NCBI RefSeq assembly: GCF_011492945.1
Contig: NZ_CP045119.1
Span: forward strand, 4,154,001 to 4,218,000
Source of the DNA: Rubrobacter tropicus
Lineage (GTDB): Bacteria > Actinomycetota > Rubrobacteria > Rubrobacterales > Rubrobacteraceae
Reading direction: 5' to 3'
Length of the DNA stretch: 64,000 nucleotides
This document shows, in pieces, positions 37,734 through 46,814 of this stretch. Made by a program: the position numbers and the translations under genes. The first letter of the stretch is position 1. Every line of letters begins with the position of its first letter. Under the pieces are notes generated by a model that was given only the letters and a program-made list of their open reading frames with translations, ran no database searches and was not told the origin of the DNA.

Positions 37734-37868
37734 GGAAGCTTGTCAGCCTGTCAGCCCGCTGCGGCTTCGCCTCCGCTCTCAGCCGTCAGCTTTTTGCCCT
37801 TGCTGAAAGCTGACGGCTGAAAGCTGACAGCCCTGCGAAAAGGCCCTGCCTCTTCGCAAACCGCTTTA
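37734..37868. repeat. Mosaic intergenic repeat, copy R8
   Basis: Follows the phosphatase stop. Contains GCTGCGGCTTCGCCTCCGC, then a perfect 14-bp stem CAGCCGTCAGCTTT (37780-37793 with 37806-37819) around TTGCCCTTGCTG, then GCTGACAGC, then the R2-like CGAAAAGG...CCTCTTCGCAAACCGC and the TTTAAA that supplies the stop of the convergent NrfD gene. Confidence 0.85.
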
Positions 37869-38906
37869 AACCTTATCCTCCGGCTGCGGGGCGTTCTCGC
37901 CGCTGGTGAAGGTAAAGTAGGCCTCGGGGTCGTCGGCGCTGATCCTGCCGGCCCGGATCATGGCGAAGCGGAACGCGAGGCCGCCGATCAGGACGAGTAC
38001 GGAGGCGAGGATGCTCTTCCGCCGGTCCTCCTCGCCACGGAGCAGCGCGAACGGGGCCGCGATGCCGCCGATAAGCGTTCCCCCGACGAAGAGCGGGGCG
38101 ACGGTCTTCGAGAAGAGGGGTTTCGCCCACCGGCTCATACGGAAGAGGGAGGCCGCAATCAGGCCGGCTTCTATGAGGATGGTAGCCTTCTCCGCCCGGT
38201 GAAGGGCGTGCAACGTCTCCGGCCTGCCCGACCGCGTCAGGCGCAGGTAGAGCGAGAGCCAAGAGAGCGCCGTCGATAGGCCCGAGGTCAGAAAGACGGG
38301 CCCCATAAAGACCCAGTTGCGCGCCCAGATCGGGACGGAGGTCGCGCTTATGAGGTTGCCGGTGTTCGAGCCGACGTTCAGGCCGACGGGCAGGGCGAGC
38401 AGCGAGAGCAGCCGGTCCGGGATGAGCTTCGTGAGGCGCACCAGGACGTTGTCCGTGCCCAGGAGACCGTCTTCCGCGGCCTGGCGGGCGGCTATGAGGC
38501 CGGCCAGGTTCCCGAAGGCTACCAGCGACCAGCTCTGGGTGGACATCGGGGAGCGGAGCTTGATGACGCGCATCATGTTGAGGAAGCGTTCCGGGCGGCC
38601 GAGGTCCCAGATCAAAAGTATCGGGCTCAGGACCATGGTGACGAGCACGGTGTAGCGGCTGACGCGCTGGAGGTCCTTGTCCCCGTGGCCGAGGATCTGG
38701 GCCACCGTCGAGAACATCTGGACGCCGGCCCCGATGCCCCCGATCCAGAAATACACGGGCACCTGCCACGTCCAGTGCGCGTGCTTTATCGGCGGGATCC
38801 CGTAGTAGTGCTTGTCTTTCCGGTTGGGATCGGTCTCCGGATGGTGGGAAGTCTGTACCTTCCCGTTGCCCTGCTGCACCGAATCCTGTCGCGTCGTCTC
38901 GCTCAC
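37866..38906 (-). CDS. NrfD/PsrC-type membrane subunit of formate dehydrogenase
   Basis: 346 aa. After a 40-residue soluble lead (ending THHPETDPNRKDKHYYG), eight to nine hydrophobic segments match polysulfide-reductase NrfD: WQVPVYFWIGGIGAGVQMFSTVAQ, LRSPMSTQSWSLVAFG, MGPVFLTSGLSTALSW. It would take electrons from the Fe-S subunit and pass them to menaquinone. It has no haem-binding histidine pattern of the cytochrome FdnI type. GTG 38906 has a GGGGGAT SD. 86 bp after the Fe-S subunit gene in the same operon. Confidence 0.9.
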   Translation of the reverse strand: MSETTRQDSVQQGNGKVQTSHHPETDPNRKDKHYYGIPPIKHAHWTWQVPVYFWIGGIGAGVQMFSTVAQILGHGDKDLQRVSRYTVLVTMVLSPILLIWDLGRPERFLNMMRVIKLRSPMSTQSWSLVAFGNLAGLIAARQAAEDGLLGTDNVLVRLTKLIPDRLLSLLALPVGLNVGSNTGNLISATSVPIWARNWVFMGPVFLTSGLSTALSWLSLYLRLTRSGRPETLHALHRAEKATILIEAGLIAASLFRMSRWAKPLFSKTVAPLFVGGTLIGGIAAPFALLRGEEDRRKSILASVLVLIGGLAFRFAMIRAGRISADDPEAYFTFTSGENAPQPEDKV

Positions 38907-38992
38907 TTATATCCCCCTACCCTGTACAAAGGACCGACTCCAACACCGCCACCCGGCAACAAACCCGGAAGCTGTATGTTGAGAGTTGATAG

Positions 38993-39829
38993 CTAATCCC
39001 TGAACGCTAGCGCCACGACCGCGCCGAGCACCGTCGCCGCGACCGCGCTGGCTATGACACCCCCCCTGAACTTCTCTTGCGGCAAGAACGGGTGGCGGGG
39101 CAGGTTGTAGACCTCGGGCTCGTCCATGAGGATGAACTTGGAGTGGTTGCCGTCTATGCCGCCCGTCCCCCCGACCTCCGGCGTCCCCCAGACGTAGGCC
39201 TGCGTGTAGCCCTTGTCCTGGAGTTCTTGGACGCGCTGCTCGGCTATGACCTTTAAATCTTCGACGTCGCCGAACTGGATGGAGTTGGTGGGGCAGGCCT
39301 TGGCGCACGCCGGCTCCAGGCCGTCTATCTGACGGTCGTAGCATAGGGTGCATTTGAAGGCGCGGCCGTCGTTTGGGACCTGGGTTATCACGCCGTATGG
39401 GCAGGCCGGGACGCAGTAGCCACAACCGTTGCAGATGTCGGGCTGGATGTAGACGTTGTCGAACTCGTTGCGGATGATCGAGCCGGTCGGGCACGCCTGC
39501 TGGCACGGTGCGGCGACGCAGTGCTTGCACACGTCGCTCATAAACGCCCAGCGACCGAGGGCGTCGAGTTCGGCGCCGCCGGGGAGGGGCTCCGTCACGT
39601 CCTCAGCTAGCGCGACGAGGTCGACGTCGCCGGTGAGGCGGCGCTTTTTCGGGTTCTCTATGAACGCGACGTGGCGCCAAGTCGTTCCGGACAACTGCTT
39701 GGTGTTGTCGTAGGAGTCGCCGGTGAACTCGTAGCCGTCGGCGGGGAGCTGGTTCCACTGCTTGCAGGCCACCTCGCAGGCCTTGCAGCCGATGCAGACC
39801 GTGGTGTCGGTCAGGAATCCCGTTGCCAT
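38993..39829 (-). CDS. Formate dehydrogenase iron-sulfur subunit
   Basis: 278 aa. Sixteen cysteines in four [4Fe-4S] clusters: CIGCKACEVACKQWN (residue 12), CKHCVAAPCQQACP (about 97), CNGCGYCVPACP (about 130) and CTLCYDRQIDGLEPACAKACP (about 155). The C-terminus has one membrane helix (SAVAATVLGAVVALAF). It wires electrons from the catalytic subunit to the NrfD protein. Direct neighbour (no gap) to the 122-aa protein upstream. Confidence 0.95.
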   Translation of the reverse strand: MATGFLTDTTVCIGCKACEVACKQWNQLPADGYEFTGDSYDNTKQLSGTTWRHVAFIENPKKRRLTGDVDLVALAEDVTEPLPGGAELDALGRWAFMSDVCKHCVAAPCQQACPTGSIIRNEFDNVYIQPDICNGCGYCVPACPYGVITQVPNDGRAFKCTLCYDRQIDGLEPACAKACPTNSIQFGDVEDLKVIAEQRVQELQDKGYTQAYVWGTPEVGGTGGIDGNHSKFILMDEPEVYNLPRHPFLPQEKFRGGVIASAVAATVLGAVVALAFRD

Positions 39830-40198
39830 CTACTTCCCTCCCAGGATCTTACGCCGGATCTCCGCCACGGGCGCCGCCGGATCGCTGCTGACGCGGAACA
39901 TCTTGTGCCCGAGCGCTACGCGTTGTTGCCGGTACACCCTGTCCACCATGCCCGTCCCCATGTTGTAGTAGACGCCGGGCTCGAGCACCTTCGCGCTCCT
40001 TATCGGCTTGAGGCGCTTCTTGGCCATCGCGGGGTTGTCCGCGAGGTACTGGCCCAACTCCATGAGGTCCTGGGTTATGGCCTCCCGGCGCGTACTCTCG
40101 GCGAGCCACGTCTCGCTCGGGGTGTCTGCCGGGGAGACGCGCGTGCCCCTGGGGGTCCGCACGTCCCCCGCTTCCTGGGTGTCCCTGTAGTCGGTCAC
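39830..40198 (-). CDS. Small protein of the formate dehydrogenase operon, unknown
   Basis: 122 aa, no cysteines, no signal or membrane segment, highly charged. GTG 40198 overlaps the catalytic subunit stop (GTGA) and the gene ends one base before the Fe-S subunit start, so it is locked into the operon. Contains RREAITQDLMELGQYLADNP and YNMGTGMVDRVYRQQRVALGHKMFRVS. I do not recognise it. Candidate roles: assembly factor, cofactor or selenoprotein helper, or structural subunit; none is shown. Confidence 0.75.
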   Translation of the reverse strand: MTDYRDTQEAGDVRTPRGTRVSPADTPSETWLAESTRREAITQDLMELGQYLADNPAMAKKRLKPIRSAKVLEPGVYYNMGTGMVDRVYRQQRVALGHKMFRVSSDPAAPVAEIRRKILGGK

Positions 40199-43100
40199 AC
40201 CTTGCCCGCTTCCAGGTTGGCGGTGAAGGCCTTGGCCTCGTGGATGGCGACGTTGGCCTCCAACGCGACCGGAATCAGGTTGTTTACCACGTCGCCCTTG
40301 ACCACGCCGTTCGGGCCCCAGTGGTAGGGGAGGCCGATGGTGTGGATCTGACGCCCGTCCAGGTTGTAGACGGGGATGCGGTCTGAGACCAGCGCCCTGC
40401 AGTGGACCTTGCCACGGCTCGTAGAGACGGTGACGAAGTCCGCGTTCTCGACGCCCACCTCGGCGGCGAGGGTCGGGCTGATCTCGCAGAACAACTCCGG
40501 CTGCAACTCCGAAAGCCACGGAAGCCAACGGCTCATCGCCCCGCTGGTGTGGTGCTCGGTGAGCCTGTACGTGGTGACCACGTGCGGGAACCTCGGGTCC
40601 ATCGGTTTGTTGTACGGGTTGTCGGGCCGGTCGAAGAGCCTGGCGGTCGGGCTGTACTGGACCTCGTCGTAGAGCAGGTTCGGCACGGGGGACTCGACGG
40701 GCTCGTAATGGATCGGCAGCGGCCCGTCCTTGAGACCGACCGGCGCGAAGAGCCAGCCCTTCCCGTCGCCCTGCATGATGAAGGGGCCGTCGCCGGGGAT
40801 GGCGTCGACGCCCTTCGCGTCCGGGTCCGGGCGGTAGTCCGGGCGCTTGTCCGCCTGGAAGTCGGGGACGTCATTGCCCACCCACTTGCCCTGATCCTCG
40901 TCCCACCAGACGAACTTTTTGCGCTCCGACCAGGGCTTACCCTCGGGGTCTGCGGAGGCGCGGTTATATAGGACGCGCCTGTTTGCCGGCCACGCCCAGC
41001 CCCACTCGGTGGCGACGTTCGGCTGCTCGGTCCAGGGCTTGCGGCGCCTGGCCTGGTTGACGCCGTTGGCCATAACGCCCGAGTAGATCCAACCCCCGCA
41101 AGCGGTCGAGCCGTCGTCCTTGAGCGCGGCGAAGCCTGCCACCGGCGAGCCGTCGGCGACGTTGTAGCCGTTGACCTCCCTGGTGATGCTCTCTATGTTG
41201 GGCTCGTCGTGCTCGCCCTCCAGGGGGTAATCCCAGGTCATCGCCTGGATGAGCGCGTCGCGCTCGTCGGCCGAGTCCTTGTACAGCTCCTTGATCCTGC
41301 GCCCCAGGTGGTAGACGAACCACGCGTCGCTTCTCGCGTCGTCCGGCGGCTCGACGGCCTTGTCGTGCCACTGGAGCATGCGCTGGGTCTGGGTGAAGGA
41401 GCCGTCTTTCTCGGCGACGAGGGCGGCCGGGATAAAGAAGACCTCGGTGCCGCACTCCTCCGGCTTTACGCCGTCCATCTTCCAGGCCGTGGCCGTCTCT
41501 ATCTCGTAGGCGTCGACGACGACCAGCCAGTCGAGGGCGCGCAGGGCGTCGCGGGCGAGGTTGGCGTGCGGCCCGCCGACGGCGAAGTTCTGGCCGAAGT
41601 TGAAGGCGCCCTTCACCTCGCGGTCCTTCATCGCCATGATCGAGGGGTAGTACGAGTGGTCCCCGTTTATGCGCGGGAAGCGGTCGAAGAGCGCGCCCTC
41701 TTCCGGATCAAACGCCTCACCGTACCAGGCCTTCATCAGGCTGGTGGCGTACTTGGGGAAGTTGGCGAGCCAGCCGGTGCCGGCCGTCCCGTCTTCTATG
41801 TAGTCGCGCCAGGTGTCGTGGTTCTTGTTGGCGTCGGGCATCCCGAGGTAGCCGGGCAGGATGTTGTAGAGGGTGGCTATGTCCGTCGAGCCCTGGATGG
41901 TCGCGTGCCCGCGCAGGGCCATGATGCCGCCGCCGGGACGTCCGATGTTGCCGAGCAAAAGCTGGAGGATGGCGGCCGTCCGGATCAGCTGCACGCCCTT
42001 GGAGTGCTGGGTCCAGCCGACGGAGTAGACGAGCGCGGTCGTCCTGTCGCGGCCGGAGTTCTCGGTGATGAGCCTCGCGACCTCCAAAAAGGCCTCGCGC
42101 GGGGTGCCGCAGACCTTCTCGACCATCTCAGGGGTGTACTTGGCGAAGTGGCGCTTGAGGATCTGGAAGACGCAGCGCTCGTGCTGAAGGGTCATGTCCG
42201 TCGGGCGAGGCTGGTCGGGGGGCATCTCGCTCTGCCCGCCCGACTCTCCGACGATGTTCCCCTGGCTCCCGCCGACGGCGGCGTAGTCTATGGGGTGGCC
42301 CTCGTAGCGCCAGCTCGACGGGTCGTACTGGGTCCTCTCCTCGTCCCACCCGGAGAAGAGGCCCGTCGCCCCCGCGTCTTCGAAGTCCTCGGAGACTATC
42401 GTCGCCGCGTTCGTGTAGGCTTTGACGTACTCCTCGAAGTGCTCCTCGTTCTGGAGGACGTAGTTGATCAGGCCTCCCAGGAACGCTATGTCCGTGCCCG
42501 GCCTGATGGGCGCGTAGACGTCGCACAGGGCGCTCGTGCGGGTGAAGCGGGGGTCTATGTGGATAAGCTTCGCCCCGTTCTTTTCCTTGGCGATCATGGG
42601 GTGGCGGAACCCGACCGGGTGCGCCTCGGCCATGTTCGAGCCCTCTATGAGGATGCAGTCGGCGTTCTGGAGGTCCTGAAGCGAAGTGGTGGCCCCACCC
42701 CTACCGTACGTGATGCCCAGACCGGGCACCGTGGAGGAGTGTCATATGCGCGCCTGGTTGGTTATCCGGGTAAAGCCCATCGAGTGGAAGAGCTTGGTGA
42801 TGAGGTAGTTCTCCTCGTTGTCTATCGTGGCCCCGCCGATGGAGGAGACGGCCTGGGAGCGGCGGAGCTTCTTGCCGCCTTCGTCGTCCTCCTCCCAGTT
42901 CGCGTCGCGGGTCTCCTTCATGCGCGCGGCGATCATGTCGAGCGCCTCCTCGAGCGAGAGGTCTTCCCACTCGCCCGAATACGGGCGCCTGTACCGGACC
43001 TTCGTCCAGCGGTAGGGCGAGTTGTGCAGGCCGAAGGTGGCCGAGCCCTTGGGGCAGAGGGTTCCCGCGTTCACCGGGGAATCGGGGTTGCCCTCGATAT

Positions 43101-43308
43101 CTATGATGCGCCCGTCGCGGTGGTAGACGAGGGTGGAGCAGCCTACCGCGCAGTACGGGCAGACGCTCACCGCTTTCTTCACGCCGTCGTCCGAAAGACG
43201 CGAGCGGATGTTGCGGGTCGCCGGGCTTACCGGGTGTTCGACCGTCGTTCCGACGTGGTTCCGGATCTTCTTCCAGAGCCCGTCCTTTTCCGTGAGCTTG
43301 AGAAACAC
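40195..43308 (-). CDS. Formate dehydrogenase catalytic subunit, selenocysteine-containing
   Basis: 1037 aa if the TGA at 42744-42742 is read as selenocysteine (residue 189); it would otherwise stop there. NQARI-U-HSSTVPGLG aligns with E. coli FdnG at Sec196, and the conserved His follows. N-terminal [4Fe-4S] ligands: CPYCAVGC and TLCPKG. Molybdopterin-binding regions: GSNMAEAHPVGFRHP, IHIDPRFTRTSALCD, VYSVGWTQHSKGVQLIRTAAILQLLLGNIGRPG. It oxidises formate to CO2. There is no Tat signal, so it should face the cytoplasm, unlike FdnG. GTG 43308 follows a GAGGAG SD. Confidence 0.97.
42706..42741 (-). promoter_or_regulatory. SECIS-like hairpin after the Sec codon
   Basis: Right after TGA, the minus-strand RNA runs 13 nt and then forms UGCCC-GGUCU-GGGCA, a perfect 5-bp stem with loop GGUCU (42728-42714). 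The loop begins 18 nt after UGA, the same distance and loop sequence as in the E. coli fdhF element, where SelB binds the GGUC loop. Its bases also code for Gly-Leu of the protein. No selA, selB or selC lies in this window. Confidence 0.85.
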
Positions 43309-43489
43309 TCCCCGCTCCTCTCTCTATTCCTGGTAAACCCCGGGGCTAACGCGAAGCCGTCCGCAAGACCGGCCTCTCCCCTTCCACCTTCATACTATGC
43401 TCCCCCCATTCTAGCGCGGTGAAACCCGCTACGAAACACCCCCTTTCGTGAAGGGCCGAAGGGCGCCCGAATCTGGAGCGCCAGATACG
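43309..43489. other. Divergent intergenic region, formate and formaldehyde genes
   Basis: This part of the 368-bp gap has no ORF with support. On the minus strand, TAGAAT and TAGTAT-like boxes near 43396-43424 could drive the formate dehydrogenase operon. CCCCTTTCGTGAAGGG and GCGAATCTGGAGCGCCAG show only weak dyads. Confidence 0.35.
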
Positions 43490-43676: not shown

Positions 43677-44882
43677 ATGGCCGACAACAGAGTAGTGGTC
43701 TACAAAGGACCGGGAGAAGTAGCCGTAGAAAACATCGAGTACCCGAAGCTCGAGGTGCCGCAAGAAGTGGCGAGCGCGATGGGGATGAGCGTCGCCGCCC
43801 CGCACGCCGTGATACTCAAGATAGTCTCGACCAACATCTGCGGTTCGGACCAGCACATGGTCAGGGGCCGGACGACGGCCCCCGTGGGGCAGACCTTGGG
43901 GCACGAGATCACGGGCGAGATCGTCGAGAAGGGCGACGACGTCCAGTTCCTCGACGTGGGCGACATCTGTTCCGTCCCGTTCAACATCGCCTGCGGGCGT
44001 TGTAGGAACTGCAAGGAGCGCAAGACCGGCGTCTGCCTGAACGTCAACCCGGCGCGGGCCGGCAGCGCTTACGGCTACGTGGACATGGGCGGTTGGATCG
44101 GCGGCCAGGCCGAGTACGTGCTCGTCCCGTTCGCGGACTTCAACCTCTTGAAGTTCCCCGACCGCGAGCAGGCGCTGGAGAAGATCCTCGACCTGACGAT
44201 GCTTAGCGACATCTTCCCGACCGGCTACCACGGCGCCTACACCGCCCAGGTGACCACGGGATCTACGGTCTACGTCGCCGGCGCCGGCCCCGTCGGGTTG
44301 GCCGCGGCCCACGCGGCGCAGTTGCTGGGTGCGGCCGTCGTGATCGTGGGCGACCTCAACGAGGAGCGTCTGGCGCAGGCGAGGTCCTTCGGATGCGAGA
44401 CCGTCGACGTTTCGCAGGGGCCGCTCGAGGAGCTGATCGCGGGCATCGTGGGCGAGCCCGAGGTGGACTGCGCGGTCGACGCGGTGGGCTTCGAGGCCTC
44501 GGCCAAGCCCGGCGAGGAGGCCCCGGCGGTGGTCCTCAACCAGATCCAGACCGTCACCCGCGCGGGCGGCTCGCTCGGCATCCCGGGCCTGTACGTCACG
44601 GGCGACCCCGGTGCCGCGGACCCCGAGGCGCAGGAGGGGACGCTCAAGATAAGGTTCGGCCTCGGCTGGGCCAAGAGCCACGCGTTCTTCACGGGCCAGT
44701 GCCCGGTGATGAAGTACAACCGCGGGCTGATGATGAGCATCCTGCACGACAAGGCCCAGATCGCCAAGGCCGTCAACGCCACGGTGATCTCCCTCGACGA
44801 AGCCCCGCAGGGCTACAAGGACTTCGACAAGGGTGCCGCCAAGAAGTACGTCCTCAACCCGCACGGCATGATCCCGGCCTAA
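43677..44882 (+). CDS. fdhA: Formaldehyde dehydrogenase, glutathione-independent
   Basis: 401 aa. Zinc-dependent medium-chain dehydrogenase of the Pseudomonas FdhA type. Catalytic zinc: NICGSDQHMV (C near residue 60) and GHEITGEI; structural zinc loop CGRCRNCKERKTGVC at about 106-120; NAD-binding YVAGAGPVGLAAAHAAQ near 200. It oxidises formaldehyde to formate with NAD+ held in the protein. ATG 43677 has AGGAG 9 nt upstream. Divergent from the formate dehydrogenase that would use its product. Confidence 0.95.
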   Translation: MADNRVVVYKGPGEVAVENIEYPKLEVPQEVASAMGMSVAAPHAVILKIVSTNICGSDQHMVRGRTTAPVGQTLGHEITGEIVEKGDDVQFLDVGDICSVPFNIACGRCRNCKERKTGVCLNVNPARAGSAYGYVDMGGWIGGQAEYVLVPFADFNLLKFPDREQALEKILDLTMLSDIFPTGYHGAYTAQVTTGSTVYVAGAGPVGLAAAHAAQLLGAAVVIVGDLNEERLAQARSFGCETVDVSQGPLEELIAGIVGEPEVDCAVDAVGFEASAKPGEEAPAVVLNQIQTVTRAGGSLGIPGLYVTGDPGAADPEAQEGTLKIRFGLGWAKSHAFFTGQCPVMKYNRGLMMSILHDKAQIAKAVNATVISLDEAPQGYKDFDKGAAKKYVLNPHGMIPA

Positions 44883-45932: not shown

Positions 45933-46814
45933 ATGCTACAGAAGACCGGCAGGGCGCGGAGCGGCAACAAGACCAAGGCGCGGGTGAGGGTCGTCGAAGA
46001 CGGCCGGGCGCGCGTAAAGTCCGACCACCTCGCGACCGAAGAGCCGATGGAGATCAGGCTCGTGACGGGCGGCGGGAGGCAGACCGTAGCCGTCACCATG
46101 CGCACGCCCGGCGCGGACTTCGAGCTGGCGGCGGGTTTCCTGTACGGGGAGGGCATCATCTCCTCGCGGGAGGAGGTAAAGAAAATCAGCTACTGCGTCG
46201 ACTCCGACGTCGACGCCGAGCAGCGCTACAACATCGTCAACGTGGAGCTGAGGGGCGACCGGGAGTACGACCTGCGCTCCCTGGAGCGCCACTTCTACAC
46301 CACGAGCGCCTGCGGGGTGTGCGGCAAGGCCAGCCTGGAGCAGTTGGAGTTGCGCGGTTGCCCCGTGGTGCCGCCCGGGCCGGAGGTCTCATCGGAGACG
46401 ATCTACTCGTTGCCGGAGAAGTTGCGGGAGGCGCAGGGCCTCTTCGAGGCGACGGGCGGGCTTCACGCGGCGGCGCTCTTCGACGCGGAGGGGAACCTTC
46501 TGGCGACGCGCGAGGACGTGGGCAGGCACAACGCGACAGATAAGCTCGTCGGGTGGGCCTTGCTCGAAGACAGGTTGCCGCTCTCGGAGAACGTGGTGAT
46601 GGTGAGCGGACGGAGCTCGTTCGAGATCCTGCAGAAGTGCCTGACGGCAGGGGTGCCCGTCGTCTGCGCCGTCTCCGCCCCGAGCAGCCTCGCCGTCGAC
46701 GTCGCCAGGGAGTTCGGGATGACGCTCGTCGGGTTCTTGCGCGGGGGGCGGTTCAACGTATACGCCGGGTTTGATAGGATTCTCCTCGGAGAGGGTAAAG
46801 AGCCCGCAACGTAG
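45933..46814 (+). CDS. fdhD: Formate dehydrogenase accessory sulfurtransferase
   Basis: 293 aa. The CxxC pair of FdhD, SACGVCGKASL, is near residue 130, with REDVGRHNATDKLVGWALL and VVMVSGRSSFEILQK later. FdhD passes sulfur from IscS to the Mo/W-bis-MGD cofactor, a step needed for formate dehydrogenase activity. The first 30 residues are basic and variable. SD GGAGAAA precedes ATG 45933. TAAACT (45897-45902) is a possible -10. Confidence 0.96.
   Translation: MLQKTGRARSGNKTKARVRVVEDGRARVKSDHLATEEPMEIRLVTGGGRQTVAVTMRTPGADFELAAGFLYGEGIISSREEVKKISYCVDSDVDAEQRYNIVNVELRGDREYDLRSLERHFYTTSACGVCGKASLEQLELRGCPVVPPGPEVSSETIYSLPEKLREAQGLFEATGGLHAAALFDAEGNLLATREDVGRHNATDKLVGWALLEDRLPLSENVVMVSGRSSFEILQKCLTAGVPVVCAVSAPSSLAVDVAREFGMTLVGFLRGGRFNVYAGFDRILLGEGKEPAT

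Follow-up and report, generated by a model that had tools for sequence, protein, structure and literature searches.

An in-frame UGA codon, a SECIS hairpin and the selenocysteine machinery support a selenoprotein formate dehydrogenase in Rubrobacter tropicus

The 64,000-nucleotide stretch of the Rubrobacter tropicus genome analyzed here (the window) carries on its reverse strand an fdhG-like gene for the catalytic subunit of a Mo/W-bisPGD formate dehydrogenase (positions 40195 to 43308; GTG start, 1,037 residues including Sec189). This is almost certainly a bacterial selenoprotein gene, in which a SelB-bound hairpin would allow UGA 189 to be read as selenocysteine, placing this residue in the active site of a formate dehydrogenase associated with the membrane. 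The same reading had been proposed in the first-pass annotation of this DNA, and it is supported here in all parts that can be tested in silico.

The fdhG reading frame and its UGA codon

The frame runs from 43308 to 40195 and ends at a TGA at 40197 to 40195. Its sole interruption is a TGA at 42744 to 42742 (codon 189), which lies in the context NQARI-U-HSSTV. The read-through protein passes the curated cut-offs of two NCBIfam models, namely, NF041513 for actinobacterial formate dehydrogenases (1511.3 bits; cut-off, 1400) and TIGR01553 for the FDH-N alpha subunit (982.3 bits; cut-off, 814). It also aligns with E. coli FdnG (1kqf; E value, 2e-219) on both sides of the UGA, bearing out the first-pass view that family sequence continues through the codon. 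In this alignment, residue 189 stands opposite the nonstandard residue (X) of 1kqf_A, which is Sec196 of FdnG, the counterpart named in that annotation. Together with its conservation in relatives, described below, this predicts that UGA 189 is read as selenocysteine. In two other molybdopterin oxidoreductases of the same genome (L019 and L020), the aligned codon is TGC; these are Cys enzymes. A long antisense ORF on the forward strand (41209 to 43422) was attributed to high GC content.

Six codons before the GTG start the frame contains a TAG, and the reading begins approximately 43 residues ahead of the Fe4S4 domain. No twin-arginine leader was found at the N terminus (VFLKLTEKDGLWKK...), which thus lacks the Tat signal peptide that marks FDH-N of the E. 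coli type.

The first-pass annotation further expected automatic pipelines to split such a gene or to call it a pseudogene. This was too strong as a general statement, since RefSeq annotates the relative from Arthrobacter sp. YA7-1 (WP_264638076.1) as one coding sequence through a TGA at codon 189.

A covarying hairpin downstream of the UGA

The predicted SelB-binding element is an apical hairpin, UGCCC-GGUCU-GGGCA, at positions 42714 to 42728 on the reverse strand. The UGA is followed by CACUCCUCCACGG (13 nt), UGCCC, GGUCU and GGGCA, so that 13 nt separate the UGA from the stem and 18 nt separate it from the loop, exactly the spacing initially described. RNA folding recovers this hairpin, lengthened by extra pairs (-24.1 kcal/mol). 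This energy is unexceptional for GC-rich sequence (z score of -0.95, with 31 of 200 shuffles as good), and free energy alone was therefore dropped as evidence for a SECIS. When codons were redrawn synonymously at the frequencies found in this gene, 17% of draws contained the 5-bp stem by itself, and 1.2% contained the stem together with GGUC at the same distance. The Rfam SECIS_3 model matches at exactly the hairpin site, with 27.4 bits (E value, 0.0037), under its gathering score of 63. The evidence for a SECIS from the window sequence alone is modest.

The comparison with relatives is more informative. TGA occupies the aligned position in 90 genes, including that of the window, which represent 78 distinct sequences from Rubrobacteraceae, other Actinomycetota, Chloroflexota, Eremiobacterota and Occallatibacter. 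A [G/A]GU[C/U]U loop is present in 74 of the 78 (GGUCU in 55, AGUCU in 9, AGUUU in 9 and GGUUU in 1), and the remaining four have a GC-variant loop. The Gly codon in the loop is GGT throughout the 23 closest genes, while GGT accounts for only 7 of the 93 Gly codons of the window's fdhG. In the stem, the wobble positions of a Val codon and a Gly codon form a standard pair in 69 of 74 sequences, as G:C (32), C:G (21), U:A (14) or G:U (2). This covariation of synonymous positions points to selection on RNA structure rather than on protein. Among 30 sequences, 89% of cells are paired; shuffles give 71 ± 2.4%, and slid controls do not exceed 56%. The covariation score of 0.494 likewise stands above the shuffles (0.176 ± 0.032) and the slid controls (no more than 0.117). 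None of 500 shuffles reaches either value; kinship among the sequences inflates this control and leaves the slid one unaffected. Conservation and covariation in relatives thus confirm, at the level of sequence comparison, that the predicted hairpin is beyond chance.

Three Cys homologues (L030, L088 and L104) provide a natural counterpart. They carry TGC or TGT at the UGA position and have lost the GGU of the loop, with GGC or GGG there instead. The E. coli fdhF SECIS, to which the original description likened the element, has a short stem and a GGUCU loop 18 nt after the UGA. The window hairpin shares these features and differs in the sequence of its stem and in its lower stem.

Selenocysteine machinery and alternative readings of the UGA

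Family searches located selA, selB, selC and selD in the window's genome. The first three form a single cluster on one strand, in the order selA-selB-selC (C1:2568590-2571895), which matches the earlier expectation that the host encodes them elsewhere. The cluster comprises selC, a tRNA-Sec with anticodon UCA (C1:2568590-2568679; 65.6 bits; cut-off, 47), full-length selB (C1:2568733-2570532; 312.8 bits) and selA (C1:2570573-2571895; 492 bits). ARAGORN found no tRNA in the window itself, selC being located elsewhere in the genome. The fourth gene, a selD of the Sec type (C1, about 2796833-2797756; L026:1480-2520, forward strand; 352 bits), likewise contains an in-frame TGA (U18), which stands opposite the catalytic Cys of E. 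coli SelD (3U0O) in the alignment. Approximately 19 nt downstream of this UGA lies a strong hairpin of the type GCUCCAG-GGGUC-CUGGAGC (z score of -2.5). With fdhG and selD both containing an in-frame UGA, the genome holds at least two selenoproteins. A genome search with a covariance model of the formate dehydrogenase hairpin yielded nothing else that rose above noise and failed to recover the selD hairpin, showing that the model is too specific to formate dehydrogenases for a census of the selenoproteome.

No selA was found in the genomes of the two Cys homologues searched of the three, L104 (G030) and L030 (G038), while it is present in 54 of the 56 other formate dehydrogenase genomes that were searched. 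The two exceptions among these 56, G036 and G170, carry the UGA form. G036 is a fragmented draft and G170 a draft that is 83% complete, and the missing selA is probably due to this incompleteness.

These data bear on whether the UGA is decoded as selenocysteine at all. One alternative is a pseudogene of a Cys-type enzyme, with the UGA arising by nonsense mutation or as a sequencing error; it has nothing in its favor but the stop codon itself. The frame is intact downstream of the UGA, selABCD are present, and TGA recurs at the same codon in 78 distinct sequences from several phyla; this conservation refutes the pseudogene interpretation, which we consider extremely improbable. Decoding of the UGA as an ordinary amino acid, by means of a suppressor tRNA or a changed genetic code and without SelB, could draw on the presence of a tRNA with anticodon UCA. 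However, that tRNA fits the tRNA-Sec family above its cut-off and adjoins selB and selA, fdhG itself terminates at TGA, and the hairpin covaries; we consider such decoding extremely improbable. In the preferred selenoprotein reading, the hairpin 3' of UGA 189 would bind SelB carrying Sec-tRNA-Sec during translation, the UGA would be decoded as selenocysteine, and Sec189 would coordinate the active-site metal of a membrane-associated enzyme composed of FdhG, FdhB and an NrfD-type subunit.

Genomic context and predicted role of the enzyme

The gene heads an fdhG-orf122-fdhB-nrfD operon on the reverse strand. The gene orf122 (39830 to 40198) encodes a small conserved protein of 122 residues between fdhG and fdhB, with no match in Pfam or NCBIfam. 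Its likely start is the GTG at 40198, overlapping the fdhG stop codon, and was preferred over the longer mechanical frame at 39830 to 40528. It is followed by an fdhB-like 4Fe-4S electron-transfer subunit with a C-terminal hydrophobic segment (38993 to 39829; PF13247, 1.4e-22; TIGR01582, 2.4e-49, under cut-off) and an NrfD/PsrC-type membrane subunit (37866 to 38906; PF03916, 2e-28). Divergently upstream, on the forward strand, lie a glutathione-independent formaldehyde dehydrogenase (43677 to 44882; TIGR02819, 715.7 bits; cut-off, 637) and then fdhD, for the accessory sulfurtransferase of formate dehydrogenase (45933 to 46814; NF001943, 318.8 bits; cut-off, 269; PF02634). This gene order is kept across Rubrobacteraceae, including R. 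marinus (L100), and the formaldehyde dehydrogenase adjoins fdhG in nearly all Rubrobacteraceae loci with enough flanking sequence. Among the loci compared, orf122 stands beside fdhG in Rubrobacteraceae only, where its copies are about 47 to 91% identical to that of the window. The fdhB-nrfD gap in the window (38906-38993) is 86 bases, compared to approximately 460 bases between the corresponding matches in two loci from metagenome-assembled genomes with fdhG approximately 95% identical (L060:4810-5276 and L090:2539-3001).

The proximity of the operon to formaldehyde dehydrogenase and fdhD suggests a locus for the oxidation of formaldehyde via formate to CO2. The adjacent formaldehyde dehydrogenase is the likely source of the formate, which the enzyme would probably oxidize, likely passing the electrons to the quinone pool. 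Metal-dependent formate dehydrogenases related to the fdhG product can run in reverse, and this reversibility leaves room for an enzyme that mainly reduces CO2 or acts on another substrate. The equivalog-level match to formate dehydrogenase families and the neighboring formaldehyde dehydrogenase and fdhD argue against such a role, which we regard as unlikely.

The enzyme shares its catalytic subunit family with E. coli FDH-N (FdnG, 1KQF), which has Sec at the aligned position. It differs from FDH-N in the missing Tat-type leader, in a membrane subunit of the NrfD rather than the FdnI type and in the extra orf122. From the first two differences, the fdhG product is predicted not to be FdnG-like in topology, and the absent leader suggests a catalytic subunit that faces the cytoplasm, unlike that of FDH-N, which is periplasmic. 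A more tentative proposal, which we hold to be somewhat less probable than its opposite, is that orf122 encodes a subunit or assembly factor, specific to this lineage, of a Sec formate dehydrogenase that faces the cytoplasm, is anchored by NrfD and couples the detoxification of formaldehyde to the quinone pool.

The closest known systems are the NF041513 Sec formate dehydrogenases of Rubrobacter and other Actinomycetota, which have the same protein, UGA and hairpin, with sequence differences only. The fdhG of R. marinus is 72% identical, and those of two Rubrobacteraceae metagenome-assembled genomes (L059 and L060) are 95 to 96% identical; TGA is present in all of these. The selD of the window's genome encodes a Sec-type SelD, already known as the second selenoprotein in genomes of this kind (PMC1794560). 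In the actinobacterium A. chiangmaiensis DSM 45062, formate oxidation that depends on selenium has been demonstrated and attributed to Sec formate dehydrogenases (PMC7176365), and the tRNA-Sec of Rubrobacter xylanophilus has been described (PMC5330540).

The fdhG gene is a typical representative of the selenoprotein most common in bacteria, and its mechanism shows no anomaly. General understanding is little changed, because Sec formate dehydrogenase (FdhA) was already recognized as the bacterial selenoprotein with the widest distribution (PMC1794560, PMC5029168) and R. xylanophilus was already listed in 2006 with five selenoproteins (PMC1794560). For R. tropicus, the reading of a single gene is corrected, and the genome is shown to use selenocysteine.
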